DNA from: a virus
Strand: one strand, 5' to 3'
DNA: 27,408 nt
Virus record (IMG/VR): IMGVR_UViG_3300036822_000102
Coordinates: 1-27,408 of that record
Below are positions 7,915 through 18,031 of this stretch, one piece after another (the stretch's first letter is position 1; each line of letters starts with the position of its first letter). The translations under genes and the position numbers were made by a program. The notes under the pieces were generated by a model, which was not told where the DNA came from, made no database searches, and saw only the letters and a program-made list of their open reading frames with translations.

Positions 7915-9090
7915 TTAGCTGTTCACGTTCTGGGTGAAATTGACCAGGTACTGATCAGTGATGCGCTGGCGTAACAGTAAGTTTTCCAGCGGCGGGACCG
8001 GCGTATAGTCGTAATCAATGACCAGTTTCCCGGCTTTCAGCGTGTCTTTATCGTTCGCCGTGTTATCAATCCAGGCATTGCCGTCGATGATGTAGCCGGC
8101 AGATTTCAGTTCACGGAATTTGGCCTTGATACCTTCCAGGATATCTTTGGCAAGTGATGGGTGCAGTGGCATGTCAACGGCCCACATGTGCGCCTCTGCC
8201 ATTGTGTCCGCCAACACCTGCGCAGTGCGGGTGTAGTTTTCAAACTGGAACAATGGATCATCGGAACAGGTGCGGGAACCCCAGAACTTATAGCCATCCT
8301 TGCGGATCAGTGTGGTGACGTCGTTCTTGTTCAGCAGGTTGGCATCGGTGGCGCTGTCCTGCAGGTCCCAAAACACATCTGCATTGATGCCGGTCACGCC
8401 ATTAACGCCGACGTTTGACAGCGTTTTGTGCCAGCCCGTCTGCTGGTCAATTTTGGCGCGCAGTCCCAATGCGCGGGCGGTTGCGAACGCCGTCGCGTCT
8501 GCATTGGTCACAGTGTCCCAACTCAGAAAATCTGGCCAGATCAGCATGGCCTCGCGCTGGCTAAAGTTCTCGCGATAAGCAATGGCTTCGGAAACCGTCT
8601 TGCATCCATAGGTGCTCAGGTAGGCGAATGCGCGAAGGCTTTGAGCTACTGACAGCAATTCAGTGGCGACGGCCTTACTGTCGTGGCCAGGCACACCCAG
8701 AATGCGCGGCTTTACACCTAACAAACTTTGCGCAGCCAGCAGGGCTTTCATGCCGGTTTTCTTGCCCGTAGTGGCGTCAACTCCGCCGATGATGTTGGTT
8801 GTGGTTTCAGCCTCGGTGTCGCCTTGTTCGACACGGACAACAACGGTAACTGGTTTTGCCTGGTCGGCGATAGCATCTAGGGAGCGGGCGAGGGTGCCGG
8901 TTTCTCCGGCCTTGCCGCTTGCGGCCAGGACGTCTGTCAGCAATACAGGAGTGTTGAGTGGGAAGGCCGTAGCATCGGCATCGTCGGCGGTGCAGACCAT
9001 CCCCACAATTGCTGTGCTTACGGTTGTGATTGCGCGGGTACCCTCGTTAATTTCGAGGACACGAACGCCATGATGATAATCTTCAGCCAT
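7915..9090 (-). CDS. FI: Major tail sheath protein gpFI
   Basis: Protein of 391 aa (P2 FI 396 aa) that forms the contractile sheath. The start [19 protein letters not shown] has GGAG 9 bases upstream. Conserved sheath features include the [11 protein letters not shown] segment and the C-terminal [21 protein letters not shown] and [19 protein letters not shown] motifs (each shortened here). It is the first gene of the FI-FII-E-T-U-D-ogr operon. A CATAGC -10-like element at 9125-9130 and an Ogr-type site lie upstream. Confidence 0.96.
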
Positions 9091-9167
9091 CGGGCGGATC
9101 TCCGGTTCCGGTTAAGGTTTCTCCGCTATGGTGTTCGTTGATGGCGTCAAGTGCATGCGCTGGGCAT

Positions 9168-9185
9168 TGTGTGGCGGCTGGCACA
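9168..9185. promoter_or_regulatory. Ogr-type activator site of late promoter PF
   Basis: TGT-N12-ACA is embedded in a longer palindrome (CATTGTG, 10 bases, CACAATG). Ogr/Delta proteins bind TGT-N12-ACA centred about 55 bases upstream of P2 late transcription starts. The centre at 9176.5 predicts a start near 9121, 31 bases before the FI start codon. A -10-like CATAGC is placed correctly at 9130-9125. Confidence 0.85.
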
Positions 9186-9233
9186 ATGGCCAGGTGTCTT
9201 GCTGTGGGTGTCTATATTTGTCGGCATGGCCAA

Positions 9234-9253
9234 CACAGCCAATGATGGCTGTG
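9234..9253. repeat. 8-bp hairpin upstream of PF
   Basis: CACAGCCA, a 4-base loop and TGGCTGTG form a perfect stem in the otherwise empty 9091-9401 intergenic stretch. There is no T run on either side, so it is not an obvious intrinsic terminator. It could slow transcripts coming from the accessory gene into the FI operon or be a leftover of a lost Z/fun-type gene. The rest of 9091-9401 contains no gene that I can support apart from the PF control site. Confidence 0.35.
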
Positions 9254-9401
9254 CTGCAGGAAAAAATGAAGCCCCGGAGTGGGACTCATGTGTATCAGCT
9301 CAAACTTAACCTGGCTGTTTCCACTGGCATCATTTAAACAAATCTAGCAGTCAGCTTTGTACTGGTAACCGACATTAAGGCACTTCTCTTTTACCAAAAA
9401 A

Positions 9402-10397
9402 TCATATAGTCAAAGGGTCTGAAATCCATTTTTTATTATGCCCTTCACGATAACAATCATAAATAAGAAGATTTCCTCTACTACCTTGCGGAATTTCAAT
9501 TTCAGGAATGTAATAATTTGCAGGGTCACTATTTTCAAATGAAATTGAGAAATGTTGATTTACAATTGTTGATAGTGTTGTTTTAGACTCTATCAAACTA
9601 AATGGCCCGTATTTTGTGCAATACATCACAATGCATGCAGCTACTGCTTCCATCACGTTTTCCAGAGTTGAAAAATTAAATGCACCAGATCTGTCATGTT
9701 TTGTTTTATTATATGCATCATACCATGTTAATGAGGTGGTTGGATTGGTAACAGACCAACTATCAAATGGTTTAAAATCCCTCAGTCCATGGTAATTCAA
9801 ATACTGTATTTTAAAATCATTTAAAAAACACTTATCCAAAAGTTTAATGTAATCATTAGTGTTGTATCTCCCATTCGATCTAGCTCCATTTGTTTTATTT
9901 ATGATCGACACCCATTGATTTTCCACCTCAGTACATGCGAGAATCAATAGTTCCCTGCATTTATGGCTATATGAATTTAGGCCACTAGAACTAGGTTCAA
10001 TATATAATAAAATATCATCTATTTTTTCAATGAGAACTCGTAGCGCTTGTTCTGATGCGCGCTTTTCAAATTCATCAATACCTAGAGCGACTTCTATATC
10101 GTCCACATTGTAAAGTGATGGTCTCCACACCCCTTGAGTCGCATGCCCGACCTCTTTGTTCAATGGCTGGATATTTTTAGAGCCAAAAACCTTTTGCACC
10201 CAGTCAGTTAAACTTCCATTTTTACTCTCAATTACAGTTAATCCCACTGAAATAATATTGAATCTAACATCACGCCCATAAAAGTGCACAAAATGGCTTG
10301 ATGTTTCGTAAGCATAACCAATTCTCTGATTAATATGGGTTGTGGTTTCAAAGTGAGGAATGCGAGTATGTGTGTTTTCGTACCAAATTCCGTTCAT
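9402..10397 (-). CDS. Accessory protein with HEPN-like motif
   Basis: Predicted protein of 331 aa, not recognised at family level. Residues ~105-170 form a helical region (KRASEQALRVLIEKIDDIL, then SHKCRELLILACTEVENQW). Residues ~224-262 contain WYDAYNKTKHDR followed by a helix (LENVMEAVAACIVMYC). The YNxxKHxR pattern after paired helices resembles HEPN-type abortive-infection proteins, where the His and a nearby polar/basic residue take part in RNA cleavage. The N-terminal ~100 residues and the C-terminal ~60 look like beta-rich additions. There is no signal peptide or membrane segment. The gene is AT-rich and lies in the same orientation as the tail operons, exactly where P2 carries the Z/fun exclusion genes (between the fibre genes and FI). 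It has its own AT-rich upstream region. A toxin or defence role is inferred, not shown. Confidence 0.8.
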   Translation of the reverse strand: MNGIWYENTHTRIPHFETTTHINQRIGYAYETSSHFVHFYGRDVRFNIISVGLTVIESKNGSLTDWVQKVFGSKNIQPLNKEVGHATQGVWRPSLYNVDDIEVALGIDEFEKRASEQALRVLIEKIDDILLYIEPSSSGLNSYSHKCRELLILACTEVENQWVSIINKTNGARSNGRYNTNDYIKLLDKCFLNDFKIQYLNYHGLRDFKPFDSWSVTNPTTSLTWYDAYNKTKHDRSGAFNFSTLENVMEAVAACIVMYCTKYGPFSLIESKTTLSTIVNQHFSISFENSDPANYYIPEIEIPQGSRGNLLIYDCYREGHNKKWISDPLTI

Positions 10398-10417
10398 AGT
10401 AATCCCTATTAAAAATT

Positions 10418-10423
10418 ATTATA
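10418..10423 (-). promoter_or_regulatory. Possible -10 element of HEPN-like gene
   Basis: A perfect TATAAT on the - strand lies 20 bases before the ATG at 10397, within a very AT-rich stretch. AGGG, 6 bases before the ATG, could be the ribosome binding site. No good -35 is seen at the right distance, so the promoter may be weak or need an activator. Confidence 0.4.
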
Positions 10424-10597
10424 CGCTCATCCGTTAAAAATATATATTTAGAGCTTATAGTGTCATATAGCTTAACCTACTATTTCCTTAGTCTAACTAT
10501 AGTGCCATAAGTAATTTAATTTTTGGATTTTATTTGTGTTTATCCAAATTGAATATGTGTGCTAAGAAAGTCCGTTCCTTGCACAAAACCGCCCGTC

Positions 10598-10612
10598 AGC
10601 TTAGGCTAAGCT
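10598..10612. repeat. 15-bp palindrome downstream of H
   Basis: AGCTTAGGCTAAGCT is a perfect 7+1+7 palindrome located 42 bases after the H stop codon, at the border between phage-like and AT-rich DNA. It may be a protein-binding site or a recombination scar. It has no T run and no loop, so it is not a terminator. The rest of 10398-10654 shows no gene; a P2 gpG-like fibre chaperone is absent. Confidence 0.4.
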
Positions 10613-10654
10613 CTGTGTTGTAACCCTGCTAGATCAAGGTCTGAGCTATGAAGC

Positions 10655-11737
10655 TTATGCTACGCGGTGCCATAGCATTTGTAGCTTGTGGCGCTCAACG
10701 ACGCTAACCGCTTCGCCTTGGCCCATAGCCTCCGTTTGCGCCCAGACGGTATGGGCGTGCGGTGGCACTGCAACTTGGTGAGTATGATCTCCGTCTTCGC
10801 TTGTATAGTTGCGGGTTCTGCGGCTGTCGTTATCAGAACCGACAATATAATCGTCATCCCATACTTCACCGGGCGCAACCATCCCCCCTTGATGTCTGTG
10901 TCTTCCTTCAGGCGCTGTTTGCAGATTTTGTACGCCATGCTCGCTAGTGCTACCCGATACGTTCAATACGGACACTGGCAGATGCGCACGCGTGATGCTC
11001 ACTGTGTCGCTTCCACCCATAGTGCCCACGTCTGATCCGTCTGCTTTTGCAGTTCTTATCGTCAGGTATTCGCCGGAATACTCCCATGTTGACCACGGCC
11101 ATTTAGCGTTAGGGTTCACGTTCTGGTTGAATAGGCGTGAAGTTCCTAGAGGGTTATCTAATTCCCAGGCGTCACGAATTGCATCTTTTATCGCTTCAGC
11201 AATCTCATCTTTGACGTTTTTGCTCAACTCGCTTAACGCTTCATCTGTGTAGTCTTTGGCTGCGTCTTCCGCCCCTTTGACGTCTTCGGCGGTTGCCAGG
11301 ATAACCGATGGATCAGCAATCAGTTCAACCGCCGCGGTGCTACTGACTTTCAACTGCATTCTGATGATTTGAAATCGGCCGGAGCCTTCAGCCAGCAGTG
11401 GCTTATAGGTTTCCGGCATATTACCCACCGCGATGCATTCGCCATCCTCTGCGTATAGCGCCAGTTCACGCAGCCAGAATCCGCCAATCTGTGGCGGCAT
11501 AATCATTTCAGCCTCAATAACGCTGGCGTCACTGTCAGCGATCACTAGCTTATTCAGTTCGCCGCGATACTGCTCTTTGATCAGGTTTGTGTTGGCGCCA
11601 TTCGGTATTGGCAGTAAGCCGTCACCGTCACCAACGGCCATCTCTACGATGGCTATCGGCGCGCCTGTAACGGCAGCATTTGCCAACCGCTCTGCGCCTG
11701 CGGTGGTGATCAATGCGCTGTATTTTTTATCACTCAC
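10655..11737 (-). CDS. H: Short tail fibre protein, gpH-like N-terminus
   Basis: Protein of 360 aa, much shorter than P2 gpH (669 aa). It has a GTG start with GGAGGT 6 bases upstream. Residues 1-150 match the P2 gpH attachment domain (ITTAGAERLANAAVTG, MAVGDGDGLLPIP, PPQIGGFWLRELALY), which binds the baseplate. Residues ~160-195 are a helical linker. The C-terminal part contains three HxH motifs (GRHRHQG, DGDHTHQ, PPHAHTV), which in tail fibres bind metal and stabilise the trimer tip. It ends HKLQMLWHRVA, like other complete fibre ends. No assembly chaperone (gpG) follows. It is probably the last gene of the V-to-H operon. Confidence 0.9.
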   Translation of the reverse strand: MSDKKYSALITTAGAERLANAAVTGAPIAIVEMAVGDGDGLLPIPNGANTNLIKEQYRGELNKLVIADSDASVIEAEMIMPPQIGGFWLRELALYAEDGECIAVGNMPETYKPLLAEGSGRFQIIRMQLKVSSTAAVELIADPSVILATAEDVKGAEDAAKDYTDEALSELSKNVKDEIAEAIKDAIRDAWELDNPLGTSRLFNQNVNPNAKWPWSTWEYSGEYLTIRTAKADGSDVGTMGGSDTVSITRAHLPVSVLNVSGSTSEHGVQNLQTAPEGRHRHQGGMVAPGEVWDDDYIVGSDNDSRRTRNYTSEDGDHTHQVAVPPHAHTVWAQTEAMGQGEAVSVVERHKLQMLWHRVA

Positions 11738-11776
11738 GCTGGGACCTCCATACTTTGATTATTTTCTGGCACTTCA

Positions 11777-12520
11777 TTAAATTGAGATCCCGCGGCGACT
11801 GTAATAGCCCAGGAAATACAGGTAAATCTGCATCAATTCTTCATCACTCAGCACGCGATCAAAGATCAAACCGGCATACTGGCGATGTTTGGCACTTCCC
11901 TCAACGCGACTTTGCCCGATGAGATAGGTCAGCGCCGGATTCGCGAACGAGGTTACAGGCGCGCCAGGTGAAACACTCTTCACCTGGCTGTTAGTCAGAT
12001 CACCAATTTTTAAACCATTACCCAGATCACGCCCATGGAAGAACGCTGGGCTACGGTCAGTGCTGCGAGTATTCATCCCCAGGCTGTATGCGCCGTTATA
12101 CGGATTTCCGTCTGCTCCTGTGCCCTTGTAGTGCGAATACATGTAAAGGGCAGAGGGGGTTGGCCCCTGAGTGCATAGCGACTTGCCAGCATCTGCGCTG
12201 CCTTTGTAGCTGGAAATCAAGAAGCAGCGGCTTGTCTGGGTCGAATCTGTGTTGTTAGCGATGGAAATCAGCGTAGCTTTCTCGCTGGTTGGCACGCGGG
12301 TATCCAGATAATTCCCGGTGGAAAACTCGAAAGCCTCACCGTTTTGTGTCGGGTTACCGTAAGCTGCCGCCGGTGATCCACCGGGGGCCAGGTTGGCCGT
12401 GAGGTTGCCACGCCCGAAAATATTGGCGTATTTCAATCCCTCGGTGCTGAAAGGGGGATTCCAGCCGTCAGGCTTGGAAATAGAGGCGCCGGCAACATTG
12501 GATTTAATGACCATGACCAT
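11777..12520 (-). CDS. Putative lectin-like tail tip protein
   Basis: Predicted protein of 247 aa, not recognised with certainty. It lies between two fibre genes: 5 bases after the esterase-like fibre stop codon and 39 bases before H, so it belongs to the host-recognition cassette. GGAG lies 10 bases before the ATG. The sequence is rich in Gly, Ser, Thr, Asn and aromatics, without membrane segments. Its C-terminal LIFDRVLSDEELMQIYLYF resembles the end of concanavalin-like (LamG/laminin G-type) sugar-binding domains in phage receptor-binding proteins. A carbohydrate-binding role is inferred from that resemblance and from position. Confidence 0.75.
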   Translation of the reverse strand: MVMVIKSNVAGASISKPDGWNPPFSTEGLKYANIFGRGNLTANLAPGGSPAAAYGNPTQNGEAFEFSTGNYLDTRVPTSEKATLISIANNTDSTQTSRCFLISSYKGSADAGKSLCTQGPTPSALYMYSHYKGTGADGNPYNGAYSLGMNTRSTDRSPAFFHGRDLGNGLKIGDLTNSQVKSVSPGAPVTSFANPALTYLIGQSRVEGSAKHRQYAGLIFDRVLSDEELMQIYLYFLGYYSRRGISI

Positions 12521-12525
12521 AATAA

Positions 12526-14676
12526 TTATTCTCCGATCTCAATCGGTTCACAAAATTGCACCGATGCGTTGTTTAATGGGTAAGGTTTACCGACCAGTTC
12601 AGCAATATTTTCATCAGCAGCTTGGTTTGAATCTGCGTGATATTCGTAGTTCGCCAGCGATGCGAAACCGTCACTGTCAAAAACGTTCCCGTTTCCGTTG
12701 TGGGTGGTTTTATCTCCGTACCAGAGTTTGGCCGCACCTGATGGCACGCTTGCCAGAGTGATCTTGATGATGGTATCGGCCACAATTTCCACTGACTCGA
12801 TAGGGATAGCCCCGGCGCTGTCAGTGACACGGAAACCTTTGTCCACGTATATCGTTGGCACACGGCCAACATAGGATGGACGGAATTGCAGCGGTGGGCT
12901 GGGCACGTGGTAAAGAACATAAATCACGCGGCCAATGCGAATAATCTTGATAGGGCCGAGTGGCTCCCAGCCCTGGCCTTCGTTGATAACACGATGCATT
13001 ACCTTGGCAAATTGCATATCCATCCAACGATAGCCATTGCTTGTGAGATGTCCGCCCTTGTCCGGGAACGGGTAAGCCGGCGTAACCAGATAGGCGTTGG
13101 CGTTTTCTTTGCAGAACTCCCATTGCGCCATGCCGATCCCCAGCTCGTAGGTATCAACGGTATAACCCCCACCGGTCTGGTACATAAAGATGGCAGGGGG
13201 GGATTTTTGCCCGGCAATGCCATACGCCATGTCATCAGTCATATTCTTTAGTAACAGTGTGTCCAACCTTGAGCGATATCCGACCTTGGTTTGCACACCA
13301 CCACGCATGCCGTTGTAGTTCCACTCGCCCTGGATGAAGATAAAGGCCGCAATGGCATAGCTGACGCCCATCTGATCCGCGATGGCCTTGACCTGCTGCA
13401 CCGCCTGAAGGGGACGCAGATACAGTTGAGGGTTTGCATTTTTTGACAGCTCTTCGATGGTGCGTCCATTCACGCCCGTGCTTGATACAACGAAGCGCCG
13501 CGCCGGATCTCGTTCCAGGCTGTTCTTTTGCAGCCATAATTTGCGTAAGAAATTGCCTAGGGCCGCTCCACCTTCACCTTCATTTCCGGCGTTAAATGCC
13601 AATGCATTACTTTCTGCATCAGTGAGAACCTGAGCGCCATCCCCTGATTGAACCACTGCTTTCAGCGGCTTGAGCGCGGACTCACCAACGGGCACGAATT
13701 CAGCGGCGGTGCGGCTTTTGGGGCGCACGCTGTCGCCCAGCATTAAATTATCGTAACCGACGATGGGTTCATTACTGAGTGCCGGGTGCCCCTCTTGCTG
13801 CGTACCGAGGCTTTGGCTGTAGATCAACAGGTGATTCAGGGCGGAAACCAGGCGCTGAATATCGGCGTTGTAGCGGTCGCGTACTGACTGCGAATAGGCC
13901 TTGTTCTGCGCGTCATGCGCCACTAAATCAAACTCGCTGACGCCGCTACCACCGGTGCCGATAGGGTTGCCTTCGATATCGATGCAATCCTTGAAAAAAC
14001 CGTCGGCGTCCTCAAGTCTCAGCCAGGCATCCGGCGTGGTCAGCGTGGAGAACGAGCCGTGCCCCTGCAGGGCTTTCGGGGCCACATCTCCCGAAGGGTT
14101 GACGAGTTCAACAATAAAATCATCGACGTCCTGGTAAATAATCCCCGCCTGTTCGCCGATATGAGTCATTTTTAGCTCATCAAGGAAAATCCCCTGCGGC
14201 GATAGCAGGCTTTTGATGGTGCCAAATGCGCCATTATTGAATAGGCGCCAGACCGAAAAATAATCATCGTCAACAATGTCTAACAGCAGGTTACTAATGG
14301 CTTCGTTGACGTGAAAATAATCTGTAACTTTTTTAACTAACTCCCCGGTGGGTAGCGTTCGGCCTGTTGGCGTAGCGACGCCGTCTATATTTTTATATTC
14401 GGCCGCCCAGGCGTCAGCATTTTCAATACGTACAGAAAATCGTGCATTCAAGGCGATGCTGCCATCATTAATTTTTGCCTGCGCTTTTTCTGCATTATCA
14501 AAAGGCTGCTCACCAACGGATAGCCCTTCAATGGCCTGTTTTAAATATTGTGTGCGATTCGCCAGTTGTTGCGGCTGAATATTAGCAACACCGTCACGGC
14601 CGCCTTTTACTTTATCACCGCGCTGTATTTGATAAACGCTATCTTCCCAGCGTCCGCTTTCGGTAATTTTCGTCAT
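12526..14676 (-). CDS. Tail fibre with SGNH/sialate-esterase-like domain
   Basis: Protein of 716 aa. The ATG at 14676 lies one base after the I stop codon (TAATATG), and longer frames run into I. Residues ~1-50 (RGDKVKGGRDGVANIQPQQLANRTQYL, shortened) are a common baseplate-proximal fibre motif. The central region carries SGNH-type hydrolase blocks: SQS at ~288-289 (nucleophile candidate Ser289, replacing GQS), QGEWN at ~449-453, and the DxxxH-like block D539-KGG-H543 with LTSNGY. This resembles carbohydrate acetylesterases that trim O-acetyl groups from surface polysaccharide. The C-terminal ~110 residues look like a beta-rich domain (VPTIYVDKGF, LWYGDKTTHNGNGN). The likely role is host-surface recognition with deacetylation. 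The hydrolase assignment is by motif only. Confidence 0.85.
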   Translation of the reverse strand: MTKITESGRWEDSVYQIQRGDKVKGGRDGVANIQPQQLANRTQYLKQAIEGLSVGEQPFDNAEKAQAKINDGSIALNARFSVRIENADAWAAEYKNIDGVATPTGRTLPTGELVKKVTDYFHVNEAISNLLLDIVDDDYFSVWRLFNNGAFGTIKSLLSPQGIFLDELKMTHIGEQAGIIYQDVDDFIVELVNPSGDVAPKALQGHGSFSTLTTPDAWLRLEDADGFFKDCIDIEGNPIGTGGSGVSEFDLVAHDAQNKAYSQSVRDRYNADIQRLVSALNHLLIYSQSLGTQQEGHPALSNEPIVGYDNLMLGDSVRPKSRTAAEFVPVGESALKPLKAVVQSGDGAQVLTDAESNALAFNAGNEGEGGAALGNFLRKLWLQKNSLERDPARRFVVSSTGVNGRTIEELSKNANPQLYLRPLQAVQQVKAIADQMGVSYAIAAFIFIQGEWNYNGMRGGVQTKVGYRSRLDTLLLKNMTDDMAYGIAGQKSPPAIFMYQTGGGYTVDTYELGIGMAQWEFCKENANAYLVTPAYPFPDKGGHLTSNGYRWMDMQFAKVMHRVINEGQGWEPLGPIKIIRIGRVIYVLYHVPSPPLQFRPSYVGRVPTIYVDKGFRVTDSAGAIPIESVEIVADTIIKITLASVPSGAAKLWYGDKTTHNGNGNVFDSDGFASLANYEYHADSNQAADENIAELVGKPYPLNNASVQFCEPIEIGE

Positions 14677-14677
14677 A

Positions 14678-15277
14678 TTATTTCCCGGAATAGTGATAGT
14701 CGCCGCTGAAACCCACAGCGCCGTTATATTTGATGCTGTCATCCGGCTCGTAATCGGCAGGGTAGACAGTGACGATATCGCCGTCATGCATGGCGGCGGC
14801 GGCGTACACCAGGCCCTTTGTTCTGGCGCTCAAACTTAATTGCCAAATATGACGGCTGACCGGCTTGGCATCGCCAATTAGCCGCTCCAACTCATTTACA
14901 ATTTCTTCGGTTATCCCGATGTCCATCACGTCAATCGTTAAACGAAACGTGCCGGCAGGGTCGGCAACCTCCCACCATTCCTCGATCGCCATGGTGTATC
15001 CCATGTTTTCGATCACGCGATTAATGGCCGCGACCGTCCCTTTCCGGCGGTGGATGTAAAAGGCGTCTTTAACGGATTTGCGCTTCTCTGCTGCTGGCCA
15101 TTTTTCATCCCACCGATCGACCGAAAAAGCCCAGGCCAGGTAGGGCAGAAAAACAATCGGACATTTGTCCGGGTTCCACAGGTCACGCAGTGGCACATTT
15201 AGATCGCTAACTGCAGCGCATGCCTCTGCCGCGCGGCGTTCAAGCGGTGAAGAACCTGGCGGCAGCAGGCTATTCAT
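14678..15277 (-). CDS. I: Baseplate protein gpI
   Basis: Protein of 199 aa (P2 gpI 176 aa), a tail-wedge protein that links the baseplate to fibre proteins. The start MNSLLPPGSSPLERRAAEAC at 15277 aligns with P2 gpI, and the ATG overlaps the J stop codon (GATGAATAG). The block LAWAFSVDRWDEKWP is strongly conserved. The C-terminal extension beyond P2 gpI (SIKYNGAVGFSGDYHYSGK) may fit the different fibre that follows. Confidence 0.94.
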   Translation of the reverse strand: MNSLLPPGSSPLERRAAEACAAVSDLNVPLRDLWNPDKCPIVFLPYLAWAFSVDRWDEKWPAAEKRKSVKDAFYIHRRKGTVAAINRVIENMGYTMAIEEWWEVADPAGTFRLTIDVMDIGITEEIVNELERLIGDAKPVSRHIWQLSLSARTKGLVYAAAAMHDGDIVTVYPADYEPDDSIKYNGAVGFSGDYHYSGK

Positions 15278-16178
15278 CCGATCCACCAATTACAACGCGG
15301 GCATCTGTGCAGTTGGCGGCCTGCGTTTTGTCCAACACCACATCGGCAGGTGGATTGCGTAGCTCTACACGCTGTACGCCCTGAGTGTGCAGTGCTGCAT
15401 AAATTGCTGTTAGGCGGATATCGCGCCCAAGGCGCCGCTGCTCGTTGATATAGGCATTCAGGCGCTTTTGTGCGTCGGCAAGGATTGGTTCTTGCGCTGG
15501 CCCCGGATAGACATAAAGCACGGCGTCAATCCCATAGTTGATGATGCTGGCAGATTGAACTGTGAGGCGATCAGCTACGGGCCGTACTGCCTGATCGTTA
15601 AGTGCAGCGTCAACTTTCGCCAGCAATTCGGGGGAGGCCGTTCCATCCCCTTCGCGGGAAAGAATCGTGACAGTGACCAGCGCCGGCGCAGGGCTAATTG
15701 CTGATGCGTCAGCAACCTTTCCATCGGCGCTCAGTGCGTGGAACTCATAGGCGCCGGTTGGTCCGGCAACGCTCATTCCCTCGAATGCCGCAGGGATGCG
15801 CTGGCGAAAATCTACATCTGATTCCATTTCCGCCTCAACAGGCGGAATAGCTTCGCTGTCAGCCGGGGTGATCATCAGCCGCGGCGTGTTGTTGTTGGCG
15901 CCAAGTTGGTCGAGATCGCCACCGATGGCATACGCCACCATTACGGCTTTTGCAGCCTCGTTGATACGCTGGCGCAATAGCACTTCTCTATAAGCATTCT
16001 CCTGCAGCAACATCACGATCGGCTCGGATTCCAGCTCCAATGTACGTGCTATGGCCTCGCGCTGATCGTCAGGATAGAGCTCAAGCAGGCGCGCCTTTCT
16101 TTCCTCAAGCAGATTTTCAAAGCTCAGTGTTTCCACTACCTGGGGTGGCGGCAGCTGCGAAAGGTCGATCACGCTCAT
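15270..16178 (-). CDS. J: Baseplate protein gpJ
   Basis: Protein of 302 aa, the same length as P2 gpJ, forming the outer baseplate wedge (T4 gp6-like family). MSVIDLSQLPPPQVVETLSF, LRQRINEAAKAVMVAYA and the C-terminal GVQRVELRNPPADVVLD are typical. It overlaps W by 4 bases at its start and I at its end, showing the tight V-W-J-I operon. Confidence 0.95.
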   Translation of the reverse strand: MSVIDLSQLPPPQVVETLSFENLLEERKARLLELYPDDQREAIARTLELESEPIVMLLQENAYREVLLRQRINEAAKAVMVAYAIGGDLDQLGANNNTPRLMITPADSEAIPPVEAEMESDVDFRQRIPAAFEGMSVAGPTGAYEFHALSADGKVADASAISPAPALVTVTILSREGDGTASPELLAKVDAALNDQAVRPVADRLTVQSASIINYGIDAVLYVYPGPAQEPILADAQKRLNAYINEQRRLGRDIRLTAIYAALHTQGVQRVELRNPPADVVLDKTQAANCTDARVVIGGSDE

Positions 16179-16525
16179 GATGCGCTCCCGTAAGGAATTG
16201 AAATATTGATGCTCGCCGTGGTGTCGTTCCTGCTGCCGGAGACATCTACGATCATTTGGCCGTCAATCTGCGTGGTCACAGTGACGACCGTCAGTGATAC
16301 GCGCGGTTCCCAGCGGTTGATAGCGCTGTATGCTGCGGCCATCAGTTGCAATCTGGTTGTGTCGTTTTGAGGCTGATCGATCAGCTCGGACATCAGCGAG
16401 CCGAACGGGCGCCGGGTGATCCTGCTGCCGATTGGAGTCAGCAAAATTTTGCTGATTGATTGACGAATGTGATCGATATCTTCGACGGCTCGGCCGCTAA
16501 TGGTGTTCATGCCCTGGTACATCAT
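16175..16525 (-). CDS. W: Baseplate protein gpW (gp25-like)
   Basis: Protein of 116 aa (P2 gpW 115 aa) of the T4 gp25/GPW baseplate wedge family. MYQGMNTISGRAVEDIDHIRQS and the PIGSRITRRPFGS block (ITRRPFGS corresponds to P2 VMRRDYGS) are clear. The two ATGs at 16525 and 16522 are both possible starts; the first overlaps the V stop codon as ATGA. Confidence 0.95.
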   Translation of the reverse strand: MMYQGMNTISGRAVEDIDHIRQSISKILLTPIGSRITRRPFGSLMSELIDQPQNDTTRLQLMAAAYSAINRWEPRVSLTVVTVTTQIDGQMIVDVSGSRNDTTASINISIPYGSAS

Positions 16526-17115: not shown

Positions 17116-17161
17116 TGGCACAGCTTGCCACCTAACTTTTTGATTAGGCACATCGATGACT

Positions 17162-17179
17162 TGTATGAGCCATGATACA
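17162..17179. promoter_or_regulatory. Ogr-type activator site of late promoter PV
   Basis: TGT-N12-ACA lies inside the perfect inverted repeat TTGTAT-N8-ATACAA, centred 55.5 bases from the V ATG. It matches the Ogr/Delta consensus and the expected PV position. The site overlaps the upstream end of the open frame on the + strand, so the true start of that gene must lie further right. Confidence 0.8.
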
Positions 17180-17212
17180 ATTTTCGTTTTTAAAGTGATG
17201 AAAGGGGAACCT

Positions 17213-18031
17213 GTGGAATCTGAGCAAGTTATTGACGCGTTAAAAAAGTTTAACGACAGACTGGAGAATGAGGTGGCTCCAGCCTATGACGATAAAGGGG
17301 CAGAATTCGGAGATCAGCGTTATGCAGCATTCAAACGTTCTTTTTCAAGGTTTATAAAGGAGGAAATACCTTCTGAAATATCAAACTGTAATAATGTATT
17401 GACACAGCGAATTTACAAAGTACGCATGAGGTATGTGCCGGAGAGTCAATATTTTTGGAGTTGCAATGGAGAGAGAGTTGCCTCCTACATTGATTCTTTG
17501 ATAATTGATATTGAGAATGGTGAGTTTGAGCTAAGAGCTGAACCTGCAGAGCATGAAGAATTGGAAAGCAAACCAGTTGAATCTAAACCATATGATAAAG
17601 TATTTATAGTTCATGGGCATAATGAAGAGGTCAAGCTTAGGACTGCTAGGTTTGTTGAGAAACTAGGATTTACAGCTGTCATTCTTCACGAACAAGCAAG
17701 TCGCGGTAAAACTATAATTGAAAAGATAGAACATTATACAGATGTCAACTTTGCTATTGTTCTTTATACTCCTGATGATCTTGGAAATACAATTGAACAA
17801 GCTAAGGCTGGGGAGTTGAACTCTAGAGCAAGGCAAAATGTCATTTTTGAACATGGATACTTAATGGCTAAAATTGGCAGGGAAAATGTTGTTGCGCTTG
17901 TTAGTGATAGATTAGAGTTACCTAATGATATTAGTGGTGTTGTCTATGTTTCTGATGCAAGTTGGGAGATGGATATTGCAAAAGAAATGAAGTCAACAGG
18001 ATACGATGTGGACTTTAATAAGTTATTCTAA
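17213..18031 (+). CDS. TIR-like (CAP12/PycTIR family) effector protein
   Basis: Predicted protein of 272 aa. The GTG at 17213 is chosen because AAGGGG lies 5 bases upstream and earlier ATGs (17156, 17165, 17198) lack ribosome binding sites or overlap the PV control site. Residues ~1-110 are a helical N-terminal domain. Residues ~128-265 form a TIR-like nucleotide-binding domain of the PF10137 type: KVFIVHGHNEEVKLR (129-143), HEQASRGKTIIEKIE (159-173, with E170 the candidate catalytic Glu), LYTPDDLG, and RARQNVIFEHGYLMAKIG. TIR domains of this family act as NAD+-degrading effectors in CBASS and Pycsar defence. No cyclase gene is adjacent, so here it would act alone or with an unseen sensor. 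It is AT-rich, on the strand opposite the late genes, between V and S where P2 carries orf30. The defence role is inferred. Confidence 0.9.
   Translation: MESEQVIDALKKFNDRLENEVAPAYDDKGAEFGDQRYAAFKRSFSRFIKEEIPSEISNCNNVLTQRIYKVRMRYVPESQYFWSCNGERVASYIDSLIIDIENGEFELRAEPAEHEELESKPVESKPYDKVFIVHGHNEEVKLRTARFVEKLGFTAVILHEQASRGKTIIEKIEHYTDVNFAIVLYTPDDLGNTIEQAKAGELNSRARQNVIFEHGYLMAKIGRENVVALVSDRLELPNDISGVVYVSDASWEMDIAKEMKSTGYDVDFNKLF

Follow-up and report, generated by a model that had tools for sequence, protein, structure and literature searches.

How does a P2-like virus divide host recognition among its tail genes when it encodes two fibres and an additional small protein, and no gpG chaperone can be found beside them? 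The locus that raises this question lies in a 27,408-base IMG/VR virus contig, IMGVR_UViG_3300036822_000102, which may itself be a fragment and which we refer to in its whole length as the window. Its P2-like tail cluster lies on the minus strand in the order V, W, J, I, three cassette genes, FI, FII, E, T, U and D. The names of I, J, FI, E, U and D come from family matches, as do those of an integrase also present in the record and of the transcriptional-regulator gene that takes the place of ogr; V, W, FII and T were named by position and size. The cassette, between gpI and the sheath gene, comprises a 716-amino-acid (aa) fibre (P0001), a 247-aa protein (P0002, here called the partner) and a 360-aa gpH-like collar fibre (P0003).

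An original prediction, made without database searches, had described a rebuilt host-recognition cassette made up of a fibre with SGNH-type motifs, a lectin-like protein and a shortened H. The three genes are real, and their coordinates and motifs had been given correctly, but they do not appear to form one assembly: a two-gene fibre module precedes a separate, gpH-derived collar fibre. What had been missed is the two-subunit architecture of that module, in which the SGNH fibre seems to have the 247-aa protein as a constant structural partner. We think it probable that the 716-aa and 247-aa genes encode a single receptor-binding device, a trimeric esterase fibre carrying three docked jelly rolls in the manner of the tailspike of Pseudanabaena phage Pan3, placed in a swap slot between gpI and the collar fibre.

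A solved tailspike matches both the fibre and the gene that follows it

The AlphaFold2 model of the fibre, computed on the fibre alignment described below, has a mean predicted local distance difference test score (pLDDT) of 82 and a predicted template modelling score (pTM) of 0.69; residues 251-716 are mostly above 90, and the first 250 residues are largely uncertain. The partner model (pLDDT 88, pTM 0.87) consists of a jelly roll and a C-terminal helix, with the first 20 residues not confidently folded. Foldseek ranked PDB entry 9vyh first for the fibre model (E 5e-20), followed by the XAC1771 acetylesterase (7kmm, E 2.3e-11). The same entry matches both cassette neighbours, with different chains: chain o for the fibre and chain p for the partner. 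In VIA comparisons the fibre aligned with 9vyh_o at Z 34.7, with a root-mean-square deviation of 18 Å over 429 residues and therefore with a different arrangement of domains in the two proteins, and the partner aligned with chain p at Z 17.0 (208 residues, 3.1 Å).

In the Pan3 genome, gp14 (13298-15535, 745 aa, tail spike) adjoins gp15 (15537-16349, 270 aa, hypothetical) with one base between them. A phmmer search matched each of them from end to end with 9vyh sequences (E 0 and 3.7e-181, three chains each), and the PDB names the gp15 chains "tailspike gp15". A solved tailspike exists, in other words, with three SGNH-type and three jelly-roll chains, the latter encoded by the next gene. Profile comparison of the window fibre family with Pan3 gp14 gave a probability of 97% (E 1.1e-10, 239 columns). 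The Pan3 genes resemble the window pair in being neighbours in the same order, an SGNH-type spike and then a jelly-roll subunit; unlike the window, Pan3 is described as a short-tailed cyanophage (PMC9837993), and its gp14 has a head-binding N-terminus. By this analogy the window pair most likely works as gp14 and gp15 do, and P0002 is most likely a fibre subunit and not a chaperone, because its Pan3 counterpart forms part of the solved tailspike.

A predicted esterase domain in the fibre

Relatives of the fibre were drawn from the best 80 of 122 found as viral loci and from 32 loci in bacterial genomes. A 90% identity cut left 57 sequences, of which 52 (L104, L106, L108, L110 and L116 being left out) were aligned with P0001 to give 53 rows. 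The fibre carries SQS at residues 287-289, QGEWN at 449-453 and DKGGH at 539-543. Gln288, Ser289 and His543 are invariant, and the remaining block residues are nearly so (Gly404 in 51 rows, Gly450, Glu451 and Asp539 in 50 each, Gln449 in 49); because they are conserved across this alignment, we do not regard the motifs as chance occurrences. We take QGE to be the SASA-type form of SGNH block III. The textbook form of block V is DxxH. DKGGH, which had been listed among the SGNH-type blocks, is indeed present, with a histidine found in every row, but its spacing is D-x-x-x-H, one residue longer than the standard, and we rejected it as a standard DxxH motif. Asp539 is missing from three rows, and L028, L114 and L115 have a longer stretch ahead of the block V histidine.

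The fold neighbours of the model are largely esterases. VIA aligned it with the carbohydrate acetylesterase XAC1771 (7kmm) at Z 25.9 (322 residues, 3.2 Å), with 2apj at Z 22.9 (219 residues, 2.5 Å) and with NanS (3pt5) at Z 20.1, and its PDB neighbours also include sialic acid esterases and other acetylesterases. In 2apj, GG and QGES align at the Gly404 and QGE blocks of the fibre, in a sequence match that is not significant (E 0.63). The Pfam SASA family matches 33 of the 53 aligned members at E ≤0.1 (best 5.1e-7), P0001 itself lying above E 0.1, and two pseudomonad relatives, with DKGTH and DKGVH, exceed the family cut-off. PDB sequence searches with P0001, P0002 and P0003 singly and with the fibre profile returned no significant relative, and no Peptidase_S74 self-processing chaperone domain was found in the record. 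The SGNH fold of P0001 is established at the level of the model, since the model's neighbours are the Pan3 tailspike and acetylesterases and since SASA matches occur among family members. The original prediction had named a missing SGNH fold as grounds for abandoning it; the fold is present in the Foldseek and VIA comparisons alike.

A predicted jelly roll in the partner

P0002 belongs to phrog_4390, a family of unknown function. Its best VIA rows are domain 4 of the arabinanase AbnA, at Z 18.6 to 18.0 (5hon: Z 18.4, 188 aligned, 2.9 Å), and further rows include clostridial neurotoxin binding domains and an arabinofuranosidase; rows less than 1 apart in Z were treated as ties. Several of its BFVD matches are named ConA-like, and the profile of the partner family reaches 4qvs at E 2.7e-4. 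Laminin_G_3 matches 6 of the 37 family members at E ≤1 (best 0.011); across 11 records it exceeds its cut-off in one (Kapieceevirus), is weaker in ST13-OXA48phi12.1 and does not match in the window. The lectin-like character proposed for this protein is borne out by the predicted structure, a concanavalin-like jelly roll. The neurotoxin domains, numerous among the fold matches, give no sign of toxicity, as only the jelly-roll fold is held in common, at about 10% identity.

Mean conservation among the 19 partner family members below 60% identity is 0.52 for residues 1-30, 0.44 for 31-200 and 0.49 for 201-247. The poorly folded N-terminus is no less conserved than the folded part, as might be expected of a docking arm.

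Fibre body and partner diverge together

To the window we added 117 fetched loci, for 118 sources, and built the partner profile from 37 sequences (the window and 36 loci). This profile found a partner in 99 of the 118 sources. In 98 of the 117 loci a copy stands directly after the fibre gene or overlaps its end, on the same strand; L109 and L112 are flagged in this count (their open frame starts upstream), and L085 and L104 are truncated where their contigs stop. The backbones on which the pair occurs include P2-like phages, the Mu-like Burkholderia phage KS10, and Serratia phage Stoker, which has lambda-like tail genes. Partner sequence similarity fades fast across phages.

For 35 fibre-partner pairs (the 37 less the partial loci L024 and L043) we compared the divergence of each fibre segment with that of the partner. 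Identity of the fibre body (residues 251-716) correlates with that of the partner (Pearson 0.90, Spearman 0.54), and the Pearson value was reached in 0 of 2000 permutations. The shaft (121-250) correlates at 0.85 with the body and 0.89 with the partner. The first 120 residues follow far less closely, at Pearson 0.45 and Spearman 0.05 with the body and 0.53 and 0.20 with the partner. As one example, we point to the comparison of the window with L011, in which the body is 91% identical, the partner 77% and the first 120 fibre residues 27%. The anchor is exchanged, whereas the fibre body diverges in step with the partner, and the pair behaves as a mobile unit.

The 19 loci without a partner comprise 13 Stutzerimonas or Pseudomonas genes of about 500-600 aa and six genes of Alphaproteobacteria and Bacteroidales of 434 to 1068 aa. 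As the two pseudomonad proteins that exceed the SASA cut-off are among those without a partner, the esterase body can exist without one. The pseudomonad genes (L093-L103, L113 and L117) have the same esterase body, several with a start that resembles a signal peptide, and a YcaO/OsmC gene follows downstream in L094 and L100; these pseudomonad genes may encode secreted esterases akin to the body of the phage fibre.

We also note a RefSeq entry, NC_047817 (L002:8277-9080), in which the partner is seemingly annotated too short: the gene is called as 423 bases (8658-9080), and the open frame from 8277 encodes 267 aa.

Two convergent sets in likely invertible cassettes

In four loci (L022, L023, L072 and L079) there is a further partner gene, encoded on the other strand and convergent with the first, and a second, distant fibre is seen in three of them; L072 ends inside the second partner stretch. 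We examined the flanks of the convergent sets in L023 and L079. Inverted repeats lie at or near both fibre starts (46 bases at 100% and 47 bases at 98%, respectively), and a resolvase-family invertase gene stands beside the sets (PF00239, E 2.1e-46 and 1.5e-49). To judge from these features, the sets in L023 and L079 are likely invertible. In L023 the second fibre is of another SGNH class (Lipase_GDSL_2, E 9.8e-17), and the partner of this fibre exceeds the Laminin_G_3 cut-off (E 3.9e-7). Because each fibre in the convergent sets keeps its own jelly-roll gene, the two appear to be cognate pairs. Relatives of the invertase occur in 24 further loci, that in L027 being a match of only 29 residues and those in L059, L067, L068 and L083 being partial. 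In the window we found no resolvase match and, within 9000-16500, no long near-perfect inverted repeat.

The collar fibre, gpG and the slot before it

The third cassette gene is the gpH-like protein with three HxH motifs that had been described. The protein matches phrog_4618 (E 1.2e-119); its N-terminus matches PF12571 (E 1.1e-45) and is 44% identical to P2 gpH over 178 aa, and the remainder does not align. The HxH-bearing end, of about 165 residues, differs from gpH and corresponds to the end seen in a different family of tail proteins (phrog_5717, E 7.5e-28), and all three motifs are invariant in the four collar proteins compared. The gp37 fibre of T4 has a metal-bound tip, and by analogy the HxH end of the collar fibre is probably one as well.

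The absence of gpG was also noted correctly: its family, PF02413, finds nothing in the record even with the threshold relaxed to E 1, and the P2 positive control matches gpG at E 7.7e-40. Because the contig may be a fragment, this absence holds for this record only. PF02413 was found in one of 38 records and in two of nine in a second set, one of these being the P2 control; the PF12571 collar family was found in 19 of the 38. In L011, the gene matched by PF02413 stands between an HxH fibre and the SGNH fibre, immediately ahead of the latter, and in the L086 genome the match is similarly placed on contig C1, which may not be the contig of the locus. From this position beside the HxH fibre, the chaperone, where present, seems to serve that fibre. 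Compared with P2 gpH and gpG, then, the window has a similar collar N-terminus, an HxH end, no gpG and an extra fibre module before the collar.

The order of transcription is fibre, partner, collar in 29 of the 31 sources that match all three profiles; the exceptions, L011 and L031, have the collar match ahead of the other two. The anchor of the window fibre is 54% identical over 52 aa to that of the CotH-type fibre of Gegevirus ST437-OXA245phi4.1, and its N-terminal part is 37% identical over 182 aa to the 983-aa fibre of Kapieceevirus ST512-KPC3phi13.2. Because the same anchor carries other bodies in these two Peduoviridae, the slot between gpI and the collar takes different fibre bodies. 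Both phages resemble the window in anchor, in slot and in having a companion gene after the fibre, and both differ in fibre bodies that match no SGNH family and align with the fibre family in the N-terminal part only. In Kapieceevirus the body has no Pfam match and the companion matches Laminin_G_3 (E 7.2e-8), with a weak link to the partner family (probability 5%). In Gegevirus (L120:2366-5440) the body is CotH-kinase-like, and the 372-aa companion after it is not linked to that family.

Proposed arrangement and alternatives

In the arrangement that we propose, the fibre would be a trimer fixed to the baseplate by its anchor (approximately residues 1-52), and its C-terminal part would be an SGNH (SASA-type) polysaccharide O-acetylesterase. 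Three concanavalin-like jelly-roll subunits would be docked on it, one set of three to each trimer, as in Pan3. Most likely the jelly roll keeps hold of the surface sugar chain during the removal of acetyl groups by the esterase, and this deacetylation would let the phage move along or through the polysaccharide. The O-acetylated surface polysaccharide suggested earlier as the target is a likely substrate by precedent. The two-gene module would thus sit in a swap slot before a second, gpH-derived fibre with an HxH tip and no gpG.

Several observations weigh against this arrangement. The roles of the Pan3 subunits are taken solely from the names in the PDB entry, and the partner family is linked to Pan3 gp15 by fold, the profile comparison being weak (probability 23%, E 9e-4). 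In the VIA list for P0002, 9vyh_p stands at rank 35 with many rows tied near Z 17, and the jelly roll is a common fold; no Pfam family, Laminin_G_3 included, matches P0002. A tblastn search (E 1e-5) of 50,697 phage records found P0002 in 9, all of Klebsiella, against 92 for P0001. The loci are partly redundant, some being near-copies and some a single contig present in two collections, and the input of the partner profile included some of the very loci that it was used to search. Finally, the triad acid of P0001 is in a non-standard position.

Other explanations were weighed. The 247-aa protein might be a fibre assembly chaperone that replaces gpG and aids folding from outside the virion: its gene directly follows the fibre gene, as gpG does in P2, PF02413 is absent from 37 of 38 records, and in the cassettes of L023 and L079 the partner stands where the invertible fibre cassette of phage Mu has its chaperone gene. 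We nevertheless regard a chaperone as improbable, as the solved Pan3 tailspike contains three chains of the corresponding protein, the P0002 fold type is common among sugar-binding proteins, and the SGNH body occurs without a partner in pseudomonad genes, several of them secreted-looking, so that its folding need not depend on one. It is similarly unlikely, in our judgment, that the SGNH domain is a dead module retained for binding. Such a loss would fit the DxxxH spacing, the NNRTH of Klebsiella phage 3LV2017 and the three rows without Asp539, whereas the serine and histidine are kept in all 53 rows and Asp539 in 50, and the two relatives with DKGTH and DKGVH pass the SASA cut-off. NanS (3pt5) is presumably a Ser-His enzyme, and SGNH enzymes without the standard acid have been solved, the title of 9h4u naming a diluted triad. 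We give very little credence to the idea that the 247-aa gene is an independent adhesin or cargo gene that is present by chance; although ConA-like proteins are widespread in phages and P2-like phages carry cargo in this region (fun(Z) in P2), neither would account for adjacency in 98 of 117 loci across P2-like, Mu-like and lambda-like backbones, or for the co-divergence of partner and fibre body.

Beyond the two-subunit fibre of the window, we advance more tentatively, and with slightly more doubt than conviction, that several lineages of tailed phages share a portable enzyme-plus-lectin module. In it an SGNH body and its own jelly roll would be inherited together on exchangeable anchors and would stand in for a fibre chaperone; a Gin-type invertase would, in some prophages, flip between two complete sets. 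If so, the jelly-roll subunit would be a main factor in deciding which acetylated surface sugar the phage binds.

Relation to known systems

The layout of the cassette is not unusual, as members of three RefSeq Peduoviridae genera have the same order. ST147-VIM1phi7.1 (Vimunumvirus), ST13-OXA48phi12.1 (Dagavirus) and 3LV2017 (Reginaelenavirus) each carry gpI, a fibre (58%, 35% and 31% identical to that of the window, respectively), a gene of 242-267 aa and a tail-collar fibre, and these counterparts are annotated merely as tail fiber, hypothetical and tail collar. In 3LV2017, where NNRTH replaces the motif with Asp539, tail genes on the opposite strand follow the collar.

Esterase fibres are likewise known. 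SGNH tail fibres are described as common in Klebsiella prophages and able to act as esterases that hydrolyse para-nitrophenyl acetate (published 2026; PMC13123978); the receptor-binding proteins 164_08 and 174_38, whose esterase activity was measured there, are SGNH tail fibres like P0001, and the main text of that report contains neither the word lectin nor the word concanavalin. A two-protein tailspike of Shigella phage B2, gp48/gp49, is reported to be an esterase (PMC11654681). Together with Moo19 gp82 (PDB 9d84), it resembles the role predicted for P0001, although P0001 reaches only Z 15.3 against 9d84_A in VIA and the division differs in B2, where gp48 is called the tail fiber and gp49 the tailspike. 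Phages fLi-Aba02/03 are described as having an SGNH fibre and a concanavalin-like gp22 (PMC11058221). This is the closest precedent in the literature searched, which yielded no statement of an SGNH fibre and jelly-roll pair as a general module. What is new here, within that literature, is confined to three points: that the 247-aa family is linked to a Pan3-type co-subunit, that it is inherited together with the fibre body and that it occurs in cassettes which are likely invertible.

The main interest lies in the partner and not in the esterase. A likely role can now be given to a family of unknown function (phrog_4390 and its relatives) whose genes stand after those of SGNH tail fibres in many prophages. 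Should sugar binding or solubility depend on the partner, expression of such fibres on their own may miss it. In PMC13123978, 34 of 50 candidate prophage depolymerases are reported to have given no detectable recombinant expression; that missing companion genes were the cause is only a guess, and the candidates there were chosen as depolymerases.

Features of the window

Coordinates of the features discussed above are collected in Table 1.

Table 1. Cassette features and flanking genes in the window, with the likely invertible cassettes of two other loci.
Feature	Position	Strand	Basis or location
P0001, 716-aa SGNH-type tail fibre, from ATG	12526..14676	-	phrog_4201 tail fiber protein E 2e-165; model; fold matches
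Fibre N-terminal anchor, residues 1-52	14521..14676	-	Common to fibres with other bodies, same slot, other Peduoviridae
SGNH/SASA esterase domain (predicted), approximately residues 278-568	12973..13845	-	VIA matches and conservation
Ser289 codon	13810-13812	-	Fibre
QGE of fibre	13324-13332	-	Conservation
Asp539 codon	13060-13062	-	Fibre
His543 codon	13048-13050	-	Fibre
Fibre C-terminal beta domain, approximately residues 569-716	12529..12972	-	Model; inside 9vyh_o and 7kmm match ranges
P0002, 247-aa jelly-roll partner, proposed stoichiometric fibre subunit	11777..12520	-	Model, VIA, phrog_4390, adjacency
P0003, 360-aa gpH-like tail-collar fibre, GTG start	10655..11737	-	PF12571, phrog_4618, P2 gpH identity
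Three HxH motifs of collar fibre, residues 280-282, 318-320, 327-329	10751..10900	-	Kept in 4/4 aligned collar proteins
gpI, upstream cassette border	14678..15289	-	Tail_P2_I PF09684 E 4.4e-48
FI tail sheath, next conserved tail gene past cassette	7915..9090	-	PF04984 E 2.7e-33
Likely invertible cassettes	L023:684-6796; L079:3659-10288		Two convergent SGNH-fibre and partner sets

Three further genes of the window are worthy of mention. Past the integrase lies a 286-aa gene on the plus strand (387-1247) that belongs to phrog_12514 (E 5.9e-52, unknown function) and has no PADLOC match. Between the collar fibre and the sheath, at the fun(Z) position of P2, a 331-aa gene on the minus strand (9402-10397) belongs to phrog_19461 (E 4.4e-187, unknown function), again with no PADLOC match. 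A TIR-domain gene (17156-18031, plus strand) lies opposite to the tail genes between the positions of S and V, where P2 has orf30; it matches PF10137, the CAP12/Pycsar effector family (E 6.5e-37), and the PADLOC candidate defence model PDC-S35 (E 2.9e-78), and is likely an anti-phage cargo gene.

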